From Hyphomicrobiales bacterium (lineage in GTDB: Bacteria > Pseudomonadota > Alphaproteobacteria > Rhizobiales > Xanthobacteraceae): a stretch of 64,000 nucleotides of DNA. Shown here piece after piece: positions 1-6,778 of this stretch. Each line of letters begins with the position of its first letter. Positions within the stretch are counted from its first letter, which is position 1. The position numbers and the translations under genes were made by a program. The notes beneath the pieces are model-generated. The model saw nothing but the letters and a program-made list of their open reading frames with translations, did no database searches and was not told the origin of the DNA. The stretch covers positions 124,001 through 188,000 of the forward strand of contig JAFKKG010000021.1 of assembly GCA_017305715.1 (NCBI GenBank), read 5' to 3'.

Positions 1-708
1 GCCGAGCGAGAGGATTTGCGCGAATCCCGTATAGAACCACATGCCCTCGAAGATCACGTAGAAGGCGACGAGGTCGCGCAGGAATGCCTGGTCGGCTTCC
101 GGCGTACCGGTCTTGAAATCAGGATCGTCGAGATGCTGGGTGTGCTTGATCGCCCATGCCGCCTTGTCGGTGATCGACGGCACCTCACGGTACATGTTGA
201 ACAGCTCGCCTTCATCGAGGCCGAGGCTCTCGACGATGTACTGGAAGGTGTGGGTATGAACCGCCTCCTCGAAGGATTGCCGCAGCAGATATTGCCGGCA
301 TTCCGGATTGGTCAGATGACGGTAGATCGCCAGCACGATGTTGTTGGCGACGAGGCTTTCGGACGCGGCGAAGAAGCCGAGGTTGCGCTTGATGGCGCGG
401 CGCTCGTCCTCGGTCAGGCCGTCGCGCGATTTCCATAGCGCGATATCCGCCTGCATCGAGACTTCGGTCGGCATCCAGTGATTGTTGCAGCCGGCGAGGT
501 ATTTCTCCCACGCCCATTTGTATTTCAGCGGCAGCAATTGATTGACGTCGGCGCGGCAGTTGATCATCCGCTTGTCGTCGACCGACACCCGGCCGCCGCG
601 GCGGTCGATGGTGCCGGGCCCGGTTTTGCCGGTTTCGGCAAGAGATGGCGCTACAAGGGGCGGCGGGACGTGGTGGGCGGGCGCCGAAGGTTCGGACCAG
701 TCAAGCAT
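1..708 (-). CDS. nrdB: Ribonucleotide reductase small subunit, class Ic-like (3' end cut by window)
   Basis: This gene encodes the radical-generating beta subunit of class I ribonucleotide reductase. Only the first 236 residues are in the window. The start is ATG at 708, preceded by GGGAGAAC, 25 nt after the nrdA stop, so the order is nrdA-nrdB in one operon. Diiron-family ligands are visible: Glu117 in FFAASE, Glu148 and His151 in EEAVHTHTF, and Glu221 in FEGMWF. The position four after His151, which is the radical Tyr in class Ia (E. coli Y122), is Phe155 (codon at 244-246). The first ligand, normally Asp (E. coli D84), is Glu117. Phe for Tyr together with Glu for Asp is the known hallmark of the Chlamydia-type class Ic enzyme with a Mn/Fe cofactor. 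The last two ligands lie outside the window. Family assignment is firm; the class Ic assignment is an inference from these residues. Confidence 0.95.
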
Positions 709-733: not shown

Positions 734-3652
734 TTACTGGCAGGCTTCGCATTCAGGATTGTCGATCGAGCACGCCATCGCCCCGGTCAGATCGGGCGCG
801 GTAACGGCGGATGTGACGTTGATCGCCGAATGACCGGACATCATCGTGACGGACGCGACGCTATTGAGCTTGCCGTCGGTGCCCTTGAGTGTCGATTTCT
901 CGACATGCGTGGCGCTGCGCGAGCGCAGGTAATACGTCGTCTTCAGCCCGCGGCTCCACGCCAGGCGATAGAGCGCGTCCAGCTTCTTGCCGGAGGGATT
1001 GGCGATGTAGAGATTGAGCGATTGCGCCTGATCGATCCACTTCTGCCGCCGCGCCGCCGCTTCGATCAACCAGGCGCTGTCGATCTCGAACGCCGTGGCG
1101 TAGAGTGCCTTGAGATCGTCCGGAATGCGGTCGATCGAACCGACGCTGCCGTCGAAATATTTGAGGTCATTGACCATGACCTCATCCCACAGCCCGCGCG
1201 CCTTGAGGTCGCGCACCAGGAACTCGTTCACGACCGTGAAATCCCCGGACATGTTGGATTTGACATAGAGATTCTGGTAAGCGGGCTCGATCGACTGCGC
1301 GACACCGCAGATGTTGGAGATCGTCGCCGTCGGCGCGATCGCCATCACGTTGGAGTTGCGCATACCGGTCGACGTCACGCGGGCCCGGAGCGCTCCCCAG
1401 TCGAGCGTGGTGTGGCGGTCCATCGCAACGCCGCCACGCGCCTGCGCCAGCAATTCGATCGAATCGATCGGCAGGATGCCCTGGCTCCACAGCGAACCGT
1501 CGAACGACGGGTAGCGGCCGCGCTCGGCGGCGAGATCGACGGAGGCCGAAATCGCATAATAGGAAATCGCCTCCATGCTGGTGTCGGCGAACGTCACGGC
1601 AGCATCGGACGCAACGGCGATCCGCAGCGCTTGCAGCGCATCCTGAAAACCCATCAATCCGAGGCCGACCGGGCGATGCCGCAGGTTCGAGCGTCGTGCT
1701 TCCGGGATGGTGTAGAAATTGATGTCGATGACGTTGTCGAGCATGCGCATCGCTGTGGTCACGCTCTTCTTCAGCCTGATCTCGTTCAGGCGGCCGTCCT
1801 GGATGTGATTGAGCAGATTGATCGAACCGAGATTGCACACAGCGGTCTCGTCGTCGGAGGTATTGAGCGTGATCTCCGTGCACAGATTAGAGGAATGGAT
1901 GACGCCGGCATGGCGCTGCGGCGAGCGCAGATTGCAGGGGTCCTTGAACGTGATCCAGGGATGCCCGGTTTCGAACAGCATGGTCAGCATCCTGCGCCAG
2001 AGGTCGGCGGCACGGATCTGCCTGAAGACGCGGATTTCGCCGCGCGCCGCCTTTGCTTCATAGAAGGCATAGCGCTCGGCAAACGGCTTGCCGTAAAGGT
2101 CGTGCAGATCGGGCGTCTCGTCCGGCGAGAACAGCGTCCATTCGCCGTCACTTTCGACCCGCTGCATGAACAGGTCGGGCACCCAATTCGCGGTATTCAT
2201 GTCGTGGGTGCGGCGGCGGTCGTCGCCGGTGTTCTTGCGCAGGTCGAGGAATTCCTCGATATCGATGTGCCAGGTCTCCAGATAGGCGCAGACCGCGCCC
2301 TTTCGCTTGCCGCCCTGGTTGACCGCGATGGCGGTGTCATTGGCGACCTTGAGGAACGGCACCACGCCCTGGCTTTCGCCATTGGTGCCCTTGATGTGGG
2401 CGCCAAGACCGCGCACGCGGCTCCAGTCATTGCCGAGCCCGCCGGAATATTTCGCGAGCAGCGCATTGTCCTTGATCGACTTGAAAATGCCGTCGAGGTC
2501 GTCGGCGACCGTCGTCAGAAAGCACGATGAGAGCTGCGGCCGCAGCGTGCCGGAGTTGAACAGTGTCGGCGTCGAGGCCATGAAGTCGAACGACGACAGC
2601 AGGTCGTAAAACTCGATCGCGCGCGCCTCGCGGTCGATCTCGCGCACCGCAAGGCCCATCGCGACGCGCATGAAGAACGCCTGCGGCAATTCGATGCGGT
2701 GGCCGCCCTCATGCAGGAAATAGCGGTCGTACAGCGTCTGCAGCCCGAGGAACTGGAACGCCAGATCGCGCTCCGGCTTCAGCGCCGCGGCGATGCGTTT
2801 CAAGTCGAAGCGCGCCAGATCGGGATCGAGCAGTTCGGCCTTGATGCCGGTCTTGATATAGGCCGGGAAATATTCGGCATAACGGCCGGTCATGTCGGCC
2901 TGCGAGGCATTGGTCGGCACGCCCTGCACATAGGACAAGACTTCGGTGCGCAATTTGTCGAGCAGCAGCCGCGCGCTCACATAGGCGTAGTTCGGCTCCT
3001 GCTCCACCAGCGTGCGCGCGGCCATCACGGAGGCCAGCGCCAGTTCATCCTGACTGATGCCGTCATAGATGTTGCGCTGGGTCTCCGCGATGACCGCCGC
3101 GGCATCGACGCCGTCGAGGCCGGCACATGCTTCGCCAGCGATCAGCACCAGCCGCGCGGTATCGAGCGGCACCCTGGTTCCGTTCGGCAACGTCACATGC
3201 AGCAGCGGTCCGGCCACGGGCTTTGCGGATTTGGCGGCGTCCTGCTCGGCGCGCTGCCTCGTGCGCTCGTCGCGATACAGCACGTAGGCGCGCGCCACCT
3301 TGTGGTGCTCGCTGCGCATCAATGCCAGTTCGACCTGGTCCTGCACGTCCTCGATGTGGAAGGTGCGGCCTTCGCTCATCCGGCGCGACAGCGCACCGAC
3401 GACTTCCGCGGTCAACTGCTCGACGACTTCATGCACCCGACGCGAGGCCGCCGCCGTGTGGCCCTCGACCGCGAGAAACGCCTTGGTCATCGCGACCGAA
3501 ATCTTGCTGGCGTCGAATTTCGAAACCGTGCCGTTACGGCGGATCACCTGCATCGGAAGCCCCGCTTCCGGCGCGGCTGATGATTCGGGACGCGACTGAA
3601 ACAAGGAAGCGGTTTTGGCTTCGAGCGACATGGATGCGGAAGATTCGGACAT
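734..3652 (-). CDS. nrdA: Ribonucleoside-diphosphate reductase, catalytic alpha subunit
   Basis: The catalytic subunit reduces ribonucleoside diphosphates to deoxyribonucleotides in the cytoplasm together with NrdB. It is 972 aa from ATG 3652 (MSESSASM). The open frame continues upstream to 3748, but that stretch lies in the riboswitch leader and has no family resemblance. An N-terminal ATP-cone ([16 protein letters not shown] onward, about residues 35-130) implies allosteric activity control. The barrel follows, with [15 protein letters not shown] and [10 protein letters not shown] carrying the active-site cysteines, Asn and Glu. The tail ends in CEACQ, the redox-active cysteine pair that re-reduces the active site. 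A cobalamin riboswitch sits in the leader, so expression probably falls when B12 is plentiful, as expected where a B12-dependent class II enzyme exists elsewhere in the genome. That class II enzyme is not in this window. Confidence 0.96.
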
Positions 3653-3779
3653 CGGCAGACCCCGTGATGTTGTTGAGGCGCGATGTCTTGAGGACGCTGC
3701 TGCGCACGCGCGGCAGCAAATGCCGGGCATGGACCTGCAAGCGGCCACCGGGACACCCCGCCCGTGGACGTTTTTTCGG

Positions 3780-3947
3780 TGTCGCGGCAGGTCTCCTGGC
3801 TCGCAGGTCGTAATTGTTTCCTGGTCTTCCCAATGCGAAGCCGCATCAGTGACTTAAAGGCGGAAACAACTCACTGCTTACAGTTGCGGGGGCAGCGCCG
3901 GAATCTCGCTGATAACATGCGGTTCACCGGCTTCCCTCTTAGCCACC
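3780..3947 (-). promoter_or_regulatory. Cobalamin riboswitch upstream of nrdAB
   Basis: On the minus strand the leader reads AGAGGGAAGCCGGTG, then GCCCCCGCAACTGTAAGC, then GTCACTGATG, TGGGAAGACC, and the 3' core GCGAGCCAGGAGACCTGCC. These are the conserved blocks of the AdoCbl riboswitch (B12 box and surrounding helices) in the right order and orientation. The 3' core ends about 130 nt before the nrdA start. Just downstream (3745-3772) is a G/C-rich stretch almost identical to one after the metE riboswitch, probably part of the expression platform. Inference: B12 binding shuts off the B12-independent reductase. Confidence 0.95.
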
Positions 3948-3977
3948 AAATCTTGCGACAAGGCGGACCGTGACATC

Positions 3978-4009
3978 TACATGTCGTGTTATTCGCGGTC
4001 GGGTGTCAA
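3978..4009 (-). promoter_or_regulatory. Candidate promoter for the nrdAB leader
   Basis: A perfect -35 hexamer TTGACA lies on the minus strand at 4009-4004, about 60 nt upstream of the riboswitch aptamer. The -10 region about 17 nt further on (CGACAT) is a poor match, so only the -35 element is convincing. Position and orientation are right for the riboswitch-nrdA transcript. Confidence 0.4.
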
Positions 4010-4098
4010 TGGGCACCGACGGCGATAGGCAGAAAATTTGGCAAGTTCCTCCACAGCTGTGAACAACGACGCGCGTGGCGACAGATGAGCCGGTCGAG

Positions 4099-4127
4099 TT
4101 GACGGGCGTGCCGCGTTGCCAGTAAGT
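4099..4127 (+). promoter_or_regulatory. Candidate promoter for the metE leader
   Basis: A -35-like TTGACG at 4099-4104 is followed 17 nt later by GTAAGT, a weak -10. It lies about 50 nt upstream of the metE riboswitch, mirroring the arrangement on the opposite strand. The call rests on position and the -35 hexamer only. Confidence 0.35.
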
Positions 4128-4149
4128 GGACGCGTCGTGGTTCTTCGGG

Positions 4150-4312
4150 ATGGTTTTCCCGAAGCTAAGAGGGAAGCCGGTGTGAAGCCGGAGCTGCCCC
4201 CGCAACTGTAAGCGGCGAGCCGCTGTCCAACAAAGTCACTGAGGCCTACCAAGGCTTTGGGAAGACCGGACAGCAGCATTGACCCGCGAGCCAGGAGACC
4301 TGCCTCGACAAC
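4150..4312 (+). promoter_or_regulatory. Cobalamin riboswitch upstream of metE
   Basis: The leader contains AGAGGGAAGCCGGTG, GCCCCCGCAACTGTAAGC, AAAGTCACTGAGG, TTGGGAAGACC and GCGAGCCAGGAGACCTGCC in order, which is the AdoCbl riboswitch consensus. It ends about 120 nt before the metE start. Several blocks are identical to those of the nrdA riboswitch on the other strand, and the stretch after the aptamer (4316-4343) matches 3745-3772 in 27 of 28 positions. Inference: B12 represses the B12-independent methionine synthase, as is known for metE in many bacteria that also have MetH. Confidence 0.95.
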
Positions 4313-4429
4313 ATAAACGTCCTCGGGCGGGGTGTCCCGGTGGTGCGGTTGCGATTCCGCGCGCCTCCTGACGCCAGGAATCCAGACGTGTCACTTCGGC
4401 CTTTGCCCCCAACTTTTGGGGTTAAGCCA

Positions 4430-6778
4430 ATGACTGCTTCTACAAATTCCACTGCCTCCTCACTACCCGTCGCTTCTCTCGGCACGCCGCGCATCGGTCC
4501 GCGCCGTGAGCTGAAGTTCGCGCTGGAAAGCTTCTGGTCGGGCACAACCGACGAGAGAGCATTGATCGAGACCGGTATCGGGCTTCGCGCCGCCAACTGG
4601 GCACGCCAGAAGAAGCTCGGCGTCAGCATCATCCCGTCGAACGATTTCTCGTTCTACGACCAGGTGCTCGACACCTGCGTGATGGTCGGCGCCATTCCGA
4701 AAGGCTACGGTTGGAGCGGCGGCACCGTTCCACTCGCCACCTACTTCGCGATGGCGCGCGGCGCGCAGCGCGAGGCGCATGACGAAGTTTGCAGCCATGC
4801 CCACCATGGACACGGCGTGCCGGCGCTGGAAATGACGAAATGGTTCGACACCAACTACCACTACATGGTGCCGGAACTGGAGAAGGACCAACGCTTCACC
4901 CTCGCCTCGCGCAAGCCGATCGAGGAATATCTGGAAGCCAGGGCGCTCGGCTATCAGACCCGTCCGGTGCTCATCGGCCCCGTGACATTCCTGAAGCTCG
5001 CCAAGTGCAAAGAGGCGAGCTTCAATACGCTCGCCCTGCTCGACCGGTTGCTGCCGGTCTACATCGAAGTCCTGCGCGAATTGGCGAAGGCCGGAGCGGA
5101 ATGGGTGCAGATCGACGAGCCCTGTCTCGTCCTCGACCTCGATATCGTAGCCCAACAGGCGCTGCACTATGCCTATACGGAGATCGCCAAGGCGGTGCCC
5201 GAACTCAAGATCATGCTGGCGACCTATTTCGGCGGGCTCGGCGCCAACCGCGACACGGCACGGGCGCTGCCCGTCGCCGGGCTGCATCTCGACCTCGTGC
5301 GCGCGCCCGAACAGCTTGCCGGCCTCGCCGATCTGGGCGGGGATCGCGTGCTGTCGCTCGGCGTCATCGACGGCCGCAATATCTGGCGCGCCGATCTGAG
5401 CCCGCTTCTCGACCGCCTCGAACCGGTGATCGGCAAGCTCGGAATGGATCGCGTGCAGCTCGCGCCGTCGTGCTCGCTGCTGCACGTCCCGATCGACCTT
5501 GCGCTGGAAACCGGCCTTCCCCCGGATGTGAAGAACTGGCTGGCATTTTCGGTGCAGAAGATCGAAGAACTGGCGGCATTGGCAACGGCACTCGCGCGCG
5601 GCCGTATCCATGCCGACGCCATGCTCAAGGCATCCGATGAAGCGGCGGCGGCACGCAAGGCCTCACCGAGGATTCACGATGCGAAGGTTGCGGCACGCAC
5701 CGCTGCCATCAGTGACGCGATGCGCGAGCGCGCCAGCGTATTCGCGGAACGCGCCGAGGTGCAACATCAGCGCTTCAATCTGCCGGCCTTCCCGACCACG
5801 ACCATCGGCTCTTTCCCGCAGACGGCCGATGTCAGGAACGCCCGCGCCGCGCACGCCAAGGGCGACCTGAGCGACGAGGCCTATAAACTGTATTTGCAAA
5901 ACCAGACCGCACGCGTGGTGCGCTGGCAGGAAACCATCGGGCTCGACGTGCTCGTACACGGCGAGTTCGAGCGCAACGACATGGTGCAGTATTTCGGCGA
6001 GCAGCTCGAAGGCTTTGCCTTCACCGCGCATGGCTGGGTGCAGTCCTACGGCTCGCGCTACGTTCGCCCGCCGGTCCTGTTCGGCGACGTGTCGCGCCCA
6101 AAGCCGATGACGGTCGAATGGTGGCGATATTCGCAATCGCTGACCGAGCGGCCGATGAAGGCGATGCTGACGGGGCCGGTGACCATTCTGAACTGGTCGT
6201 TCGTCCGCGACGATATTCCACGCAGCGAGGCGTGCCGCCAGATTGCGTTGGCGATCCGCGACGAGGTGGCCGATCTCGAAGCCGCCGGCGCCGGCATGAT
6301 CCAGATCGACGAAGCCGCGCTGCGGGAGGGGTTGCCGCTACGGAAAACGGAATGGAAAACCTATCTCGACTGGGCCGTCGACAGCTTTCGCATCTGCTCG
6401 TCGGGCGTGCGCGACGAGACCCAGATCCACACCCATATGTGCTACTCGGAGTTCAACGATATCATCGGTGCGATCGGCGCCATGGATGCCGACGTGATCT
6501 CGATCGAGACCTCGCGGTCGAAAATGGAGTTGCTCGACGCCTTCAAGGACTACCGCTACCCGAATGAGATCGGCCCGGGCGTTTACGATATCCATTCGCC
6601 ACGCATTCCCGAGATCGGCGAGATCACCGACCTGCTCAAGCTCGCCAGGCTGCGGCTCGCCGACAACCAGCTCTGGATCAATCCCGATTGCGGATTGAAA
6701 ACCCGGAAATGGGAAGAGGTGCGGCCCGCGCTGGCGAATATGGTCGCCGCCGCCCGCGAATTGCGGACGCTCGCCTGA
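4430..6778 (+). CDS. metE: Cobalamin-independent methionine synthase
   Basis: MetE transfers a methyl group from 5-methyltetrahydropteroyl-polyglutamate to homocysteine to make methionine in the cytoplasm, without B12. The product is 782 aa from ATG 4430 (MTASTNST); E. coli MetE is 753 aa. The frame is open upstream to 4340, but that part lies in the riboswitch leader and lacks family sequence. The N-terminal Meth_synt_1 and C-terminal Meth_synt_2 barrels are both present. The zinc and homocysteine site is intact: His669 and Cys671 (THMCYSEF), Glu693 (SIETS) and Cys754 (NPDCGLK). Each is exactly 28 residues beyond E. coli H641, C643, E665 and C726. It is divergent from nrdAB and controlled by its own cobalamin riboswitch. 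Confidence 0.98.
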   Translation: MTASTNSTASSLPVASLGTPRIGPRRELKFALESFWSGTTDERALIETGIGLRAANWARQKKLGVSIIPSNDFSFYDQVLDTCVMVGAIPKGYGWSGGTVPLATYFAMARGAQREAHDEVCSHAHHGHGVPALEMTKWFDTNYHYMVPELEKDQRFTLASRKPIEEYLEARALGYQTRPVLIGPVTFLKLAKCKEASFNTLALLDRLLPVYIEVLRELAKAGAEWVQIDEPCLVLDLDIVAQQALHYAYTEIAKAVPELKIMLATYFGGLGANRDTARALPVAGLHLDLVRAPEQLAGLADLGGDRVLSLGVIDGRNIWRADLSPLLDRLEPVIGKLGMDRVQLAPSCSLLHVPIDLALETGLPPDVKNWLAFSVQKIEELAALATALARGRIHADAMLKASDEAAAARKASPRIHDAKVAARTAAISDAMRERASVFAERAEVQHQRFNLPAFPTTTIGSFPQTADVRNARAAHAKGDLSDEAYKLYLQNQTARVVRWQETIGLDVLVHGEFERNDMVQYFGEQLEGFAFTAHGWVQSYGSRYVRPPVLFGDVSRPKPMTVEWWRYSQSLTERPMKAMLTGPVTILNWSFVRDDIPRSEACRQIALAIRDEVADLEAAGAGMIQIDEAALREGLPLRKTEWKTYLDWAVDSFRICSSGVRDETQIHTHMCYSEFNDIIGAIGAMDADVISIETSRSKMELLDAFKDYRYPNEIGPGVYDIHSPRIPEIGEITDLLKLARLRLADNQLWINPDCGLKTRKWEEVRPALANMVAAARELRTLA

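Follow-up and report, generated by a model that had tools for sequence, protein, structure and literature searches.

The locus and its cobalamin riboswitches

The window analysed here is a stretch of 64,000 nucleotides from a 7.45-Mb draft genome in 51 contigs. It contains a pair of outward-facing cobalamin riboswitches, one over nrdA on the minus strand and one over metE on the plus strand. The first of these genes codes for the alpha subunit of a class I ribonucleotide reductase and is followed by nrdB, the second for the B12-independent methionine synthase, whose best named relatives belong to the genus Bradyrhizobium. To judge by these relatives, the genome is probably that of a Bradyrhizobium. 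All coordinates are collected in Table 1.

Both leaders are predicted adenosylcobalamin riboswitches and members of the Rfam family RF00174. The original prediction had placed two divergent riboswitches of this kind over nrdAB and metE, and the covariance model bears this out: it recognizes both aptamers at full length and above its gathering cut-off of 31.5 bits. Nothing else in the 64-kb window matches Rfam at gathering score. The B12 box (GCGAGCCAGGAGACCTGCC), a name also used in a passage of PMC2258182, is found in both leaders.

The two target systems had further been described as B12-independent isoenzymes. This agrees with the NCBIfam assignments of NrdA and MetE as well as with the remainder of the genome, which encodes the B12-dependent counterpart MetH (1745 bits) and an NrdJ-type class II reductase that scores above its cut-off. 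nrdAB and metE are therefore the B12-independent halves of two isoenzyme pairs, and it is in this way that the targets of the riboswitches are tied to B12. Isoenzymes of this type have been described before as a target class of cobalamin riboswitches, as a passage of PMC3766115 shows.

In total the genome has six RF00174 matches. Among the other four (L001, L002, L003, L005), three precede genes for TonB-dependent receptors and the fourth precedes a DUF1636 gene with cobW nearby. By eye, a CGGGG loop follows the aptamer in five of the six riboswitches on differing stems, and the sixth carries GGTGG(G). The hairpins of these other four, the GGTGG(G) one included, have stem sequences unlike those of the nrdA and metE leaders.

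Table 1. Coordinates of the genes, predicted RNA features and related loci discussed in the text. Positions are those of the window unless a locus is named.
Feature	Position	Strand	Basis or detail
nrdB, 5' part, runs beyond the window start	1..708	-	PF00268; L235 979-2109 (-)
nrdA, class I ribonucleotide reductase alpha	734..3652	-	NCBIfam NF005544, TIGR02506; likely start ATG 3652
nrdA predicted sequestor hairpin	3648..3687	-	GACATC 3687-3682 / GATGTC 3653-3648, start codon inside
nrdA predicted sequestor, inner stem	within 3648..3687	-	GCCTC 3679-3675 / GGGGT 3663-3659 (Shine-Dalgarno)
Shared element, most likely P13-L13, nrdA copy	3745..3772	-	stem CGGG 3764-3761 / CCCG 3752-3749; loop CGGGGTGT 3760-3753
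Predicted cobalamin riboswitch aptamer of nrdAB	3769..3987	-	RF00174, 124.5 bits (cmscan), full length
L5 region GCTGCCCCCGC, putative kissing partner, nrdAB aptamer	3886..3896	-	cmscan alignment
Predicted cobalamin riboswitch aptamer of metE	4121..4321	+	RF00174, 129.1 bits (cmscan), full length
L5 region GCTGCCCCCGC, metE aptamer	4193..4203	+	cmscan alignment
Shared element, most likely P13-L13, metE copy	4316..4343	+	stem CGGG 4324-4327 / CCCG 4336-4339; loop CGGGGTGT 4328-4335
metE predicted sequestor hairpin	4398..4432	+	GCCCC 4405-4409 / GGGGT 4418-4422 (Shine-Dalgarno)
metE predicted sequestor, outer stem	within 4398..4432	+	GGC 4398-4400 / GCC 4426-4428; adjoins ATG 4430
metE, B12-independent methionine synthase	4430..6778	+	TIGR01371, NF003556; ATG 4430
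scfR-prpDCB between riboswitches	L266, L267, L268, L269, L273, L275-L279, L281, L284, L286		13 loci
Rhizobiaceae downstream riboswitches	L029:7699, L034:8365, L039:7669, L042:8496, L060:8375		

A shared element behind both aptamers

The two leaders share a 28-nt element in which, as direct reading confirms, 27 bases match and a single A/T exchange makes up the difference. It follows the B12 box at a distance of 11 nt in metE and 13 nt in nrdA. The element is most likely P13-L13, the kissing-loop hairpin of cobalamin riboswitches, because its CGGGG loop is complementary to the CCCCG in L5 of the aptamer. In a passage of PMC10653944 P13-L13 is described as the hairpin that kisses L5 in these riboswitches, and along the same lines a passage of PMC2258182 has a C-rich loop form a pseudoknot with sequence outside the aptamer core.

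The complementarity is present in nearly all of 181 distinct nrdA and metE leaders from related loci. L5 reads exactly GCTGCCCCCGCAAC in 177 of them, and GGCGGGGTG is exact in 171, a count in which locus L017 figures as lacking L13 since the script picked the wrong box, while the loop is present there. Around this one loop the P13 stem occurs in the types CGGG/CCCG, CCGG/CCGG and CGGA/TCCG. The kiss between L5 and L13 very probably forms in these leaders as well. Both loops are near-invariant, so the case for it in these leaders draws nothing from covariation. Exchanging the halves of P13 between leaders is likewise uninformative because the element hardly varies: a stem of four or more forms in 98% of native and 93% of swapped leaders. 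Taken alone, the 26-nt P13 core folds no better than its shuffles (z +0.54 and +0.17), and for the metE copy P13 as drawn differs from the best fold of this core. Such poor folding in the model would fit a hairpin that needs the kiss.

Could the element simply be a general genomic repeat that is also found far from B12 leaders? With up to two mismatches allowed, the 17-mer CGGGCGGGGTGTCCCGG matches the window twice, both times exactly, whereas 100 shuffles average 0.07 matches. The whole genome holds two exact copies, both at the nrdA/metE pair; five further matches have two mismatches, which is no excess over a reversed-pattern control with seven in all. A search of relatives with a 20-base pattern and one mismatch allowed returned 33 copies in 19 of 60, and every one of the 30 that were fetched lies 10–15 nt behind a B12 box. 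A genomic repeat as the source of the element is rejected on these grounds.

The element is also found behind metE riboswitches elsewhere in the Rhizobiales, and variants of it occur in the same place in Caulobacterales, Sphingomonadales, Acetobacteraceae and Rhodospirillales. Many of these alphaproteobacterial metE riboswitches carry it at loci whose fetched flank shows no other riboswitch facing outward. It is absent behind two alphaproteobacterial metE riboswitches (L049, L059), and at three metE loci of the class (L055 from Rhodovulum, L081, L086) cmscan gave no RF00174 match. Rfam matches of other kinds were also seen near metE: the suhB (mmgR) sRNA at L026:3387-3460 (-) with 45.5 bits, and the ALIL pseudoknot in Rhodovulum at L055:6939-7055 (+) with 101.9 bits.

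For nrdA a sample of 108 loci (L127–L234) was picked from the stronger matches. A cobalamin riboswitch lies upstream of the gene in 107 of them, 106 found by motif and L175 by cmscan; L136 is the one locus where neither motif nor cmscan found any. At 30 of the 108 loci the fetched flank includes metE in divergent orientation, preceded by a riboswitch of its own, with 770–988 bp between the starts of the protein matches. Ten more have a second outward riboswitch 1.1–1.3 kb away, whose gene lies beyond the fetched stretch. The pattern CGTCC-N-CGGGCGGGGTGTCC can serve to mark cobalamin riboswitches that precede metE and nrd genes within this group.

A likely sequestor hairpin over the start sites

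About 60–90 nt behind P13, each leader can form a hairpin over the Shine-Dalgarno site of its gene, which is likely the OFF structure. The original prediction had taken the shared element itself for the regulatory switch. This stands insofar as the element forms part of the expression platform and keeps to B12 leaders, but it appears to supply the kissing-loop hairpin only, and the hairpin that would hide the start is this separate one further on.

For the own leaders alone the fold z-score is only -0.73 in nrdA and reaches -1.88 in metE. A plain-shuffle test of the Shine-Dalgarno hairpin was too weak (a score of 12 or more in 98% of native sequences and 67% of shuffles, 169 leaders), so half-swaps between leaders of the same gene were used instead. 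Within a set of 100 distinct or dereplicated leaders, the native sequestor was better in 41 of 59 nrdA leaders (P = 0.001) and 27 of 36 metE leaders (P = 0.00076). The inner stem is mostly CCCC/GGGG, but CCTC/GAGG, ACCTG/CAGGT and other paired changes also occur, and by eye the metE leader of L025 pairs a GTG start with CAC instead of CAT. RNAalifold returned almost no structure on a MAFFT alignment of 76 of the 106 nrdA platforms, probably because loop lengths vary, and the tests were therefore anchored on individual features.

Proposed coupling of the loop to the start site

How might the kissing loop and the start site be connected? In the scheme proposed here, B12 binding would let L13 (CGGGG) kiss L5 (CCCCG) of the aptamer and keep P13 closed. 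The sequestor hairpin could then form in the 3' part of the leader and hide the GGGG Shine-Dalgarno site, together with the start codon in the case of nrdA. Without B12, P13 would open; its loop and 3' strand would now bind the sequestor's 5' strand and leave the start accessible. With B12 plentiful, the two separate adenosylcobalamin riboswitches would repress translation of nrdAB and metE, and the cell would rely on NrdJ and MetH. We regard this scheme as a whole, with two B12 riboswitches, the P13-L13 kiss and a Shine-Dalgarno sequestor that controls translation, as highly probable.

The coupling itself was probed by blocking L13 in silico in 98 dereplicated leaders. The mean probability of the Shine-Dalgarno hairpin rose from 0.66 to 0.90 in nrd leaders (n=64) and from 0.70 to 0.85 in metE leaders (n=34). 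Random 7-nt blocks gave 0.73 in either group, below the L13 block (P 6e-9 and 2e-7). The effect rests on part of the leaders, since the probability rose by over 0.1 in 46 of 103 nrdA and 12 of 52 metE leaders and fell in 2 and 1. Mean exposure of the Shine-Dalgarno site changed little with L13 blocked (0.097 to 0.050 and 0.133 to 0.096, for 157 leaders from which those with no recognized L13 or Shine-Dalgarno motif had been dropped), and antisequestor duplexes were only slightly better than dinucleotide shuffles (median z -0.52 for nrd and -0.19 for metE). With the duplex tests weak, the exposure nearly unchanged and P13 alone at the level of shuffles, we only infer the ON structure, the antisequestor, and give it perhaps an even chance.

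A variant of this coupling starts from the similarity of the strands themselves. L13 might pick between near-copies, namely L5 (TGCCCCC) and the anti-Shine-Dalgarno strand, which in metE reads TGCCCCC too; the GGGG of the Shine-Dalgarno site would itself copy L13, and B12 would act by an exchange among four strands. The presence of GGGG in the Shine-Dalgarno zone of 150 of 157 platforms (the script favoured GGGG if present) suits this idea, as does the stronger effect of the L13 block compared with random blocks. The anti-Shine-Dalgarno strands of nrdA, however, often read GGCCCC or GCCTC instead, Caulobacter-type leaders combine an unchanged L13 with other Shine-Dalgarno stems, and the duplex z-scores are weak. 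Taken together, we treat such an exchange of partners as a tentative possibility.

In the literature, the introduction of PMC10653944 calls it not known how the kissing loop couples to the ribosome site, and a passage of the review PMC8123684 has the kissing loop itself cover it. More than 100 natural leaders, in which L13 is almost fixed and the sequestor varies, offer a test bed for this coupling.

Translation as the likely level of control

The Shine-Dalgarno site of either gene lies in a predicted hairpin that covaries, and a terminator search found no intrinsic terminator in 3600–4500 (shuffles gave a mean of 1.0); together these results favour control of translation. A sigma-70 promoter scan of the same interval returned no match. 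We infer, with high confidence, that B12 is the signal to which both genes respond and that it represses their translation.

Rho-dependent termination and RNA decay are known to be coupled to other riboswitches. Control of the leaders by one of these, and not at translation start, would agree with the lack of an intrinsic terminator in this interval. It nevertheless seems unlikely given the covarying hairpin at both genes, although the two modes do not exclude each other.

Origin of the pair

The near-identity of the shared element had originally been explained by duplication of aptamer and expression platform as one unit. If the pair had arisen here in this way, with the 28-nt match as its trace, the 27 identical bases would be expected, and overall similarity points in the same direction: the own nrdA and metE leaders are 73.7% identical, compared with 53–63% between each of them and the four other own riboswitches. 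From 34 loci with both genes, together with these four riboswitches, a 72-row tree of aptamer and P13 was built; 4 of 38 two-gene loci were left out as repeats of others. In this tree the nrd and met leaders jointly split from the four at 99/95.

The same tree, however, groups the leaders by gene across species, with 3 and 4 label changes compared with a shuffled mean of about 24. At two of its loci, L153 and L052, nrd and met leaders do stand side by side, with support that is not firm. A clade of the own two leaders is rejected, since forcing them together worsens the fit by 110.8 log units (AU P = 2.4e-38). A second tree of 142 rows, dereplicated from 197, mainly agrees (5 and 7 label changes versus 47 and 44 in shuffles); its bootstrap is unsettled and many deep branches are unresolved. 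Here three of the four other own riboswitches adjoin a metE leader (L025, 85/95), so the joint nrd and met group is itself not firm. Metabolic gene leaders with a single riboswitch, those of metE standing alone, retain the element too. A recent local duplication is rejected by the clustering by gene and the failure of the own-pair clade, and that the pair arose at this locus by duplicating one unit is very unlikely.

The gene-wise tree and the rejected clade instead mark the 28-nt match as the outcome of long-standing constraint and not of a recent local event. The metE and nrd leader subtypes may still descend from one old ancestor, perhaps through one ancient duplication. More generally, a conspicuous match between two leaders need not be the scar of a duplication and can instead be a functional part that is conserved.

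Gene starts and the wider neighbourhood

Two GTG codons, at 3748 (-) and 4340 (+), both within P13, are the starts of the longest nrdA and metE open reading frames. That translation begins at these codons, with L13 carrying the Shine-Dalgarno site and longer N-termini on NrdA and MetE, is scarcely credible and disfavoured despite the extent of the frames, with a stop codon between P13 and the conserved protein start in 16 of 43 metE loci and a conserved Shine-Dalgarno hairpin at the downstream ATG. Automatic annotation may therefore overextend both proteins. The distribution of class I nrdA across the genus is patchy: 83 of 242 genomes have a match, 23 of these matches are weak and partial (E above 1e-11), and with these set aside 60 of 242 genomes have one.

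Looking further out, 22 loci drawn from those nrdA loci with no metE in the fetched flank were inspected. At 13 of the 22, scfR-prpDCB separates the riboswitch of nrdA from that of metE; the selection carried some bias, as L266, L267, L273, L274 and L279 were known beforehand to have two outward elements 6–7 kb apart, and leaving out these five the count is 9 of 17. L271 and L272 have prp genes nearby in a different order or cut off. scfR-prpDCB is absent from the nrdA/metE locus of the own genome, and cmscan found no prp-specific riboswitch in two of the 13 loci. The prpDCB genes encode the methylcitrate cycle, through which propionate is processed without B12.

A different arrangement is seen at five Rhizobiaceae loci, where a riboswitch with a like element lies 2.7–3.6 kb downstream of the start of the metE match. 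Pfam identifies the gene that follows this riboswitch as NrdI in L029. By eye it is NrdI-like in L039, L042 and L060, and the frame in L034 ends like NrdE.

We consider the chances balanced that in Bradyrhizobium and its kin the locus is a 'B12-independence island' of genes that replace three B12-dependent routes, the outer two run by riboswitches, with a parallel in Rhizobiaceae, where another reductase (nrdHIEF-type genes) is paired with metE and lies behind it. In such an island nrdAB would stand in for NrdJ, metE for MetH and, in many species, prpDCB for methylmalonyl-CoA mutase. Its riboswitches would sense B12 and open the start-site hairpin through a kissing-loop platform that is clade-specific and hardly varies. 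Among the matches listed from open-licence PMC text, no paper deals with nrdA and metE as a pair or with an nrd-prp-metE cluster. That B12-free alternatives are grouped in this way hints at an influence of B12 supply on gene order in these bacteria.

Comparison with known systems

The mechanism is already known, and the nrdA/metE pair is a new instance of cobalamin riboswitches. Comparative studies by Vitreschak and by Rodionov reportedly date from 2003. With RF00174 the pair shares full-length aptamers far above the cut-off, a C-rich L5 and a G-rich L13 hairpin behind. It differs in that the Rfam model stops at the start of the P13 flank in these leaders, and in that P13-L13 and its flanks are near letter-identical among the relatives.

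The order of aptamer, P13-L13 and a hairpin over the ribosome site resembles that of Escherichia coli btuB, as described in a passage of PMC10653944, where the kissing loop stabilizes P13 and favours the hairpin over the ribosome-binding site. The genes here are metE and nrdA instead, the Shine-Dalgarno sequence is GGGG, the nrdA start codon lies within the hairpin, and 60–90 nt separate P13 from the hairpin.

With the Priestia megaterium metE riboswitch, also treated in a passage of PMC10653944, the metE leader shares its target, the B12-independent methionine synthase. The pairing proposed there between the 3' side of P13 and the 5' side of the OFF hairpin resembles the putative antisequestor of the present leaders. 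Transcription in Priestia megaterium ends at a terminator, in contrast to the interval scanned here, where none was found.

Caulobacter crescentus likewise has an alphaproteobacterial metE leader under B12 control: according to a passage of PMC6538847, reporters with the metE 5' UTR undergo B12-dependent shutoff of translation, and btuB and metE are its only two genes with B12 riboswitches. The CGGGG hairpin is present in the leaders of Caulobacter and Brevundimonas relatives (L041, L043, L044, L047).
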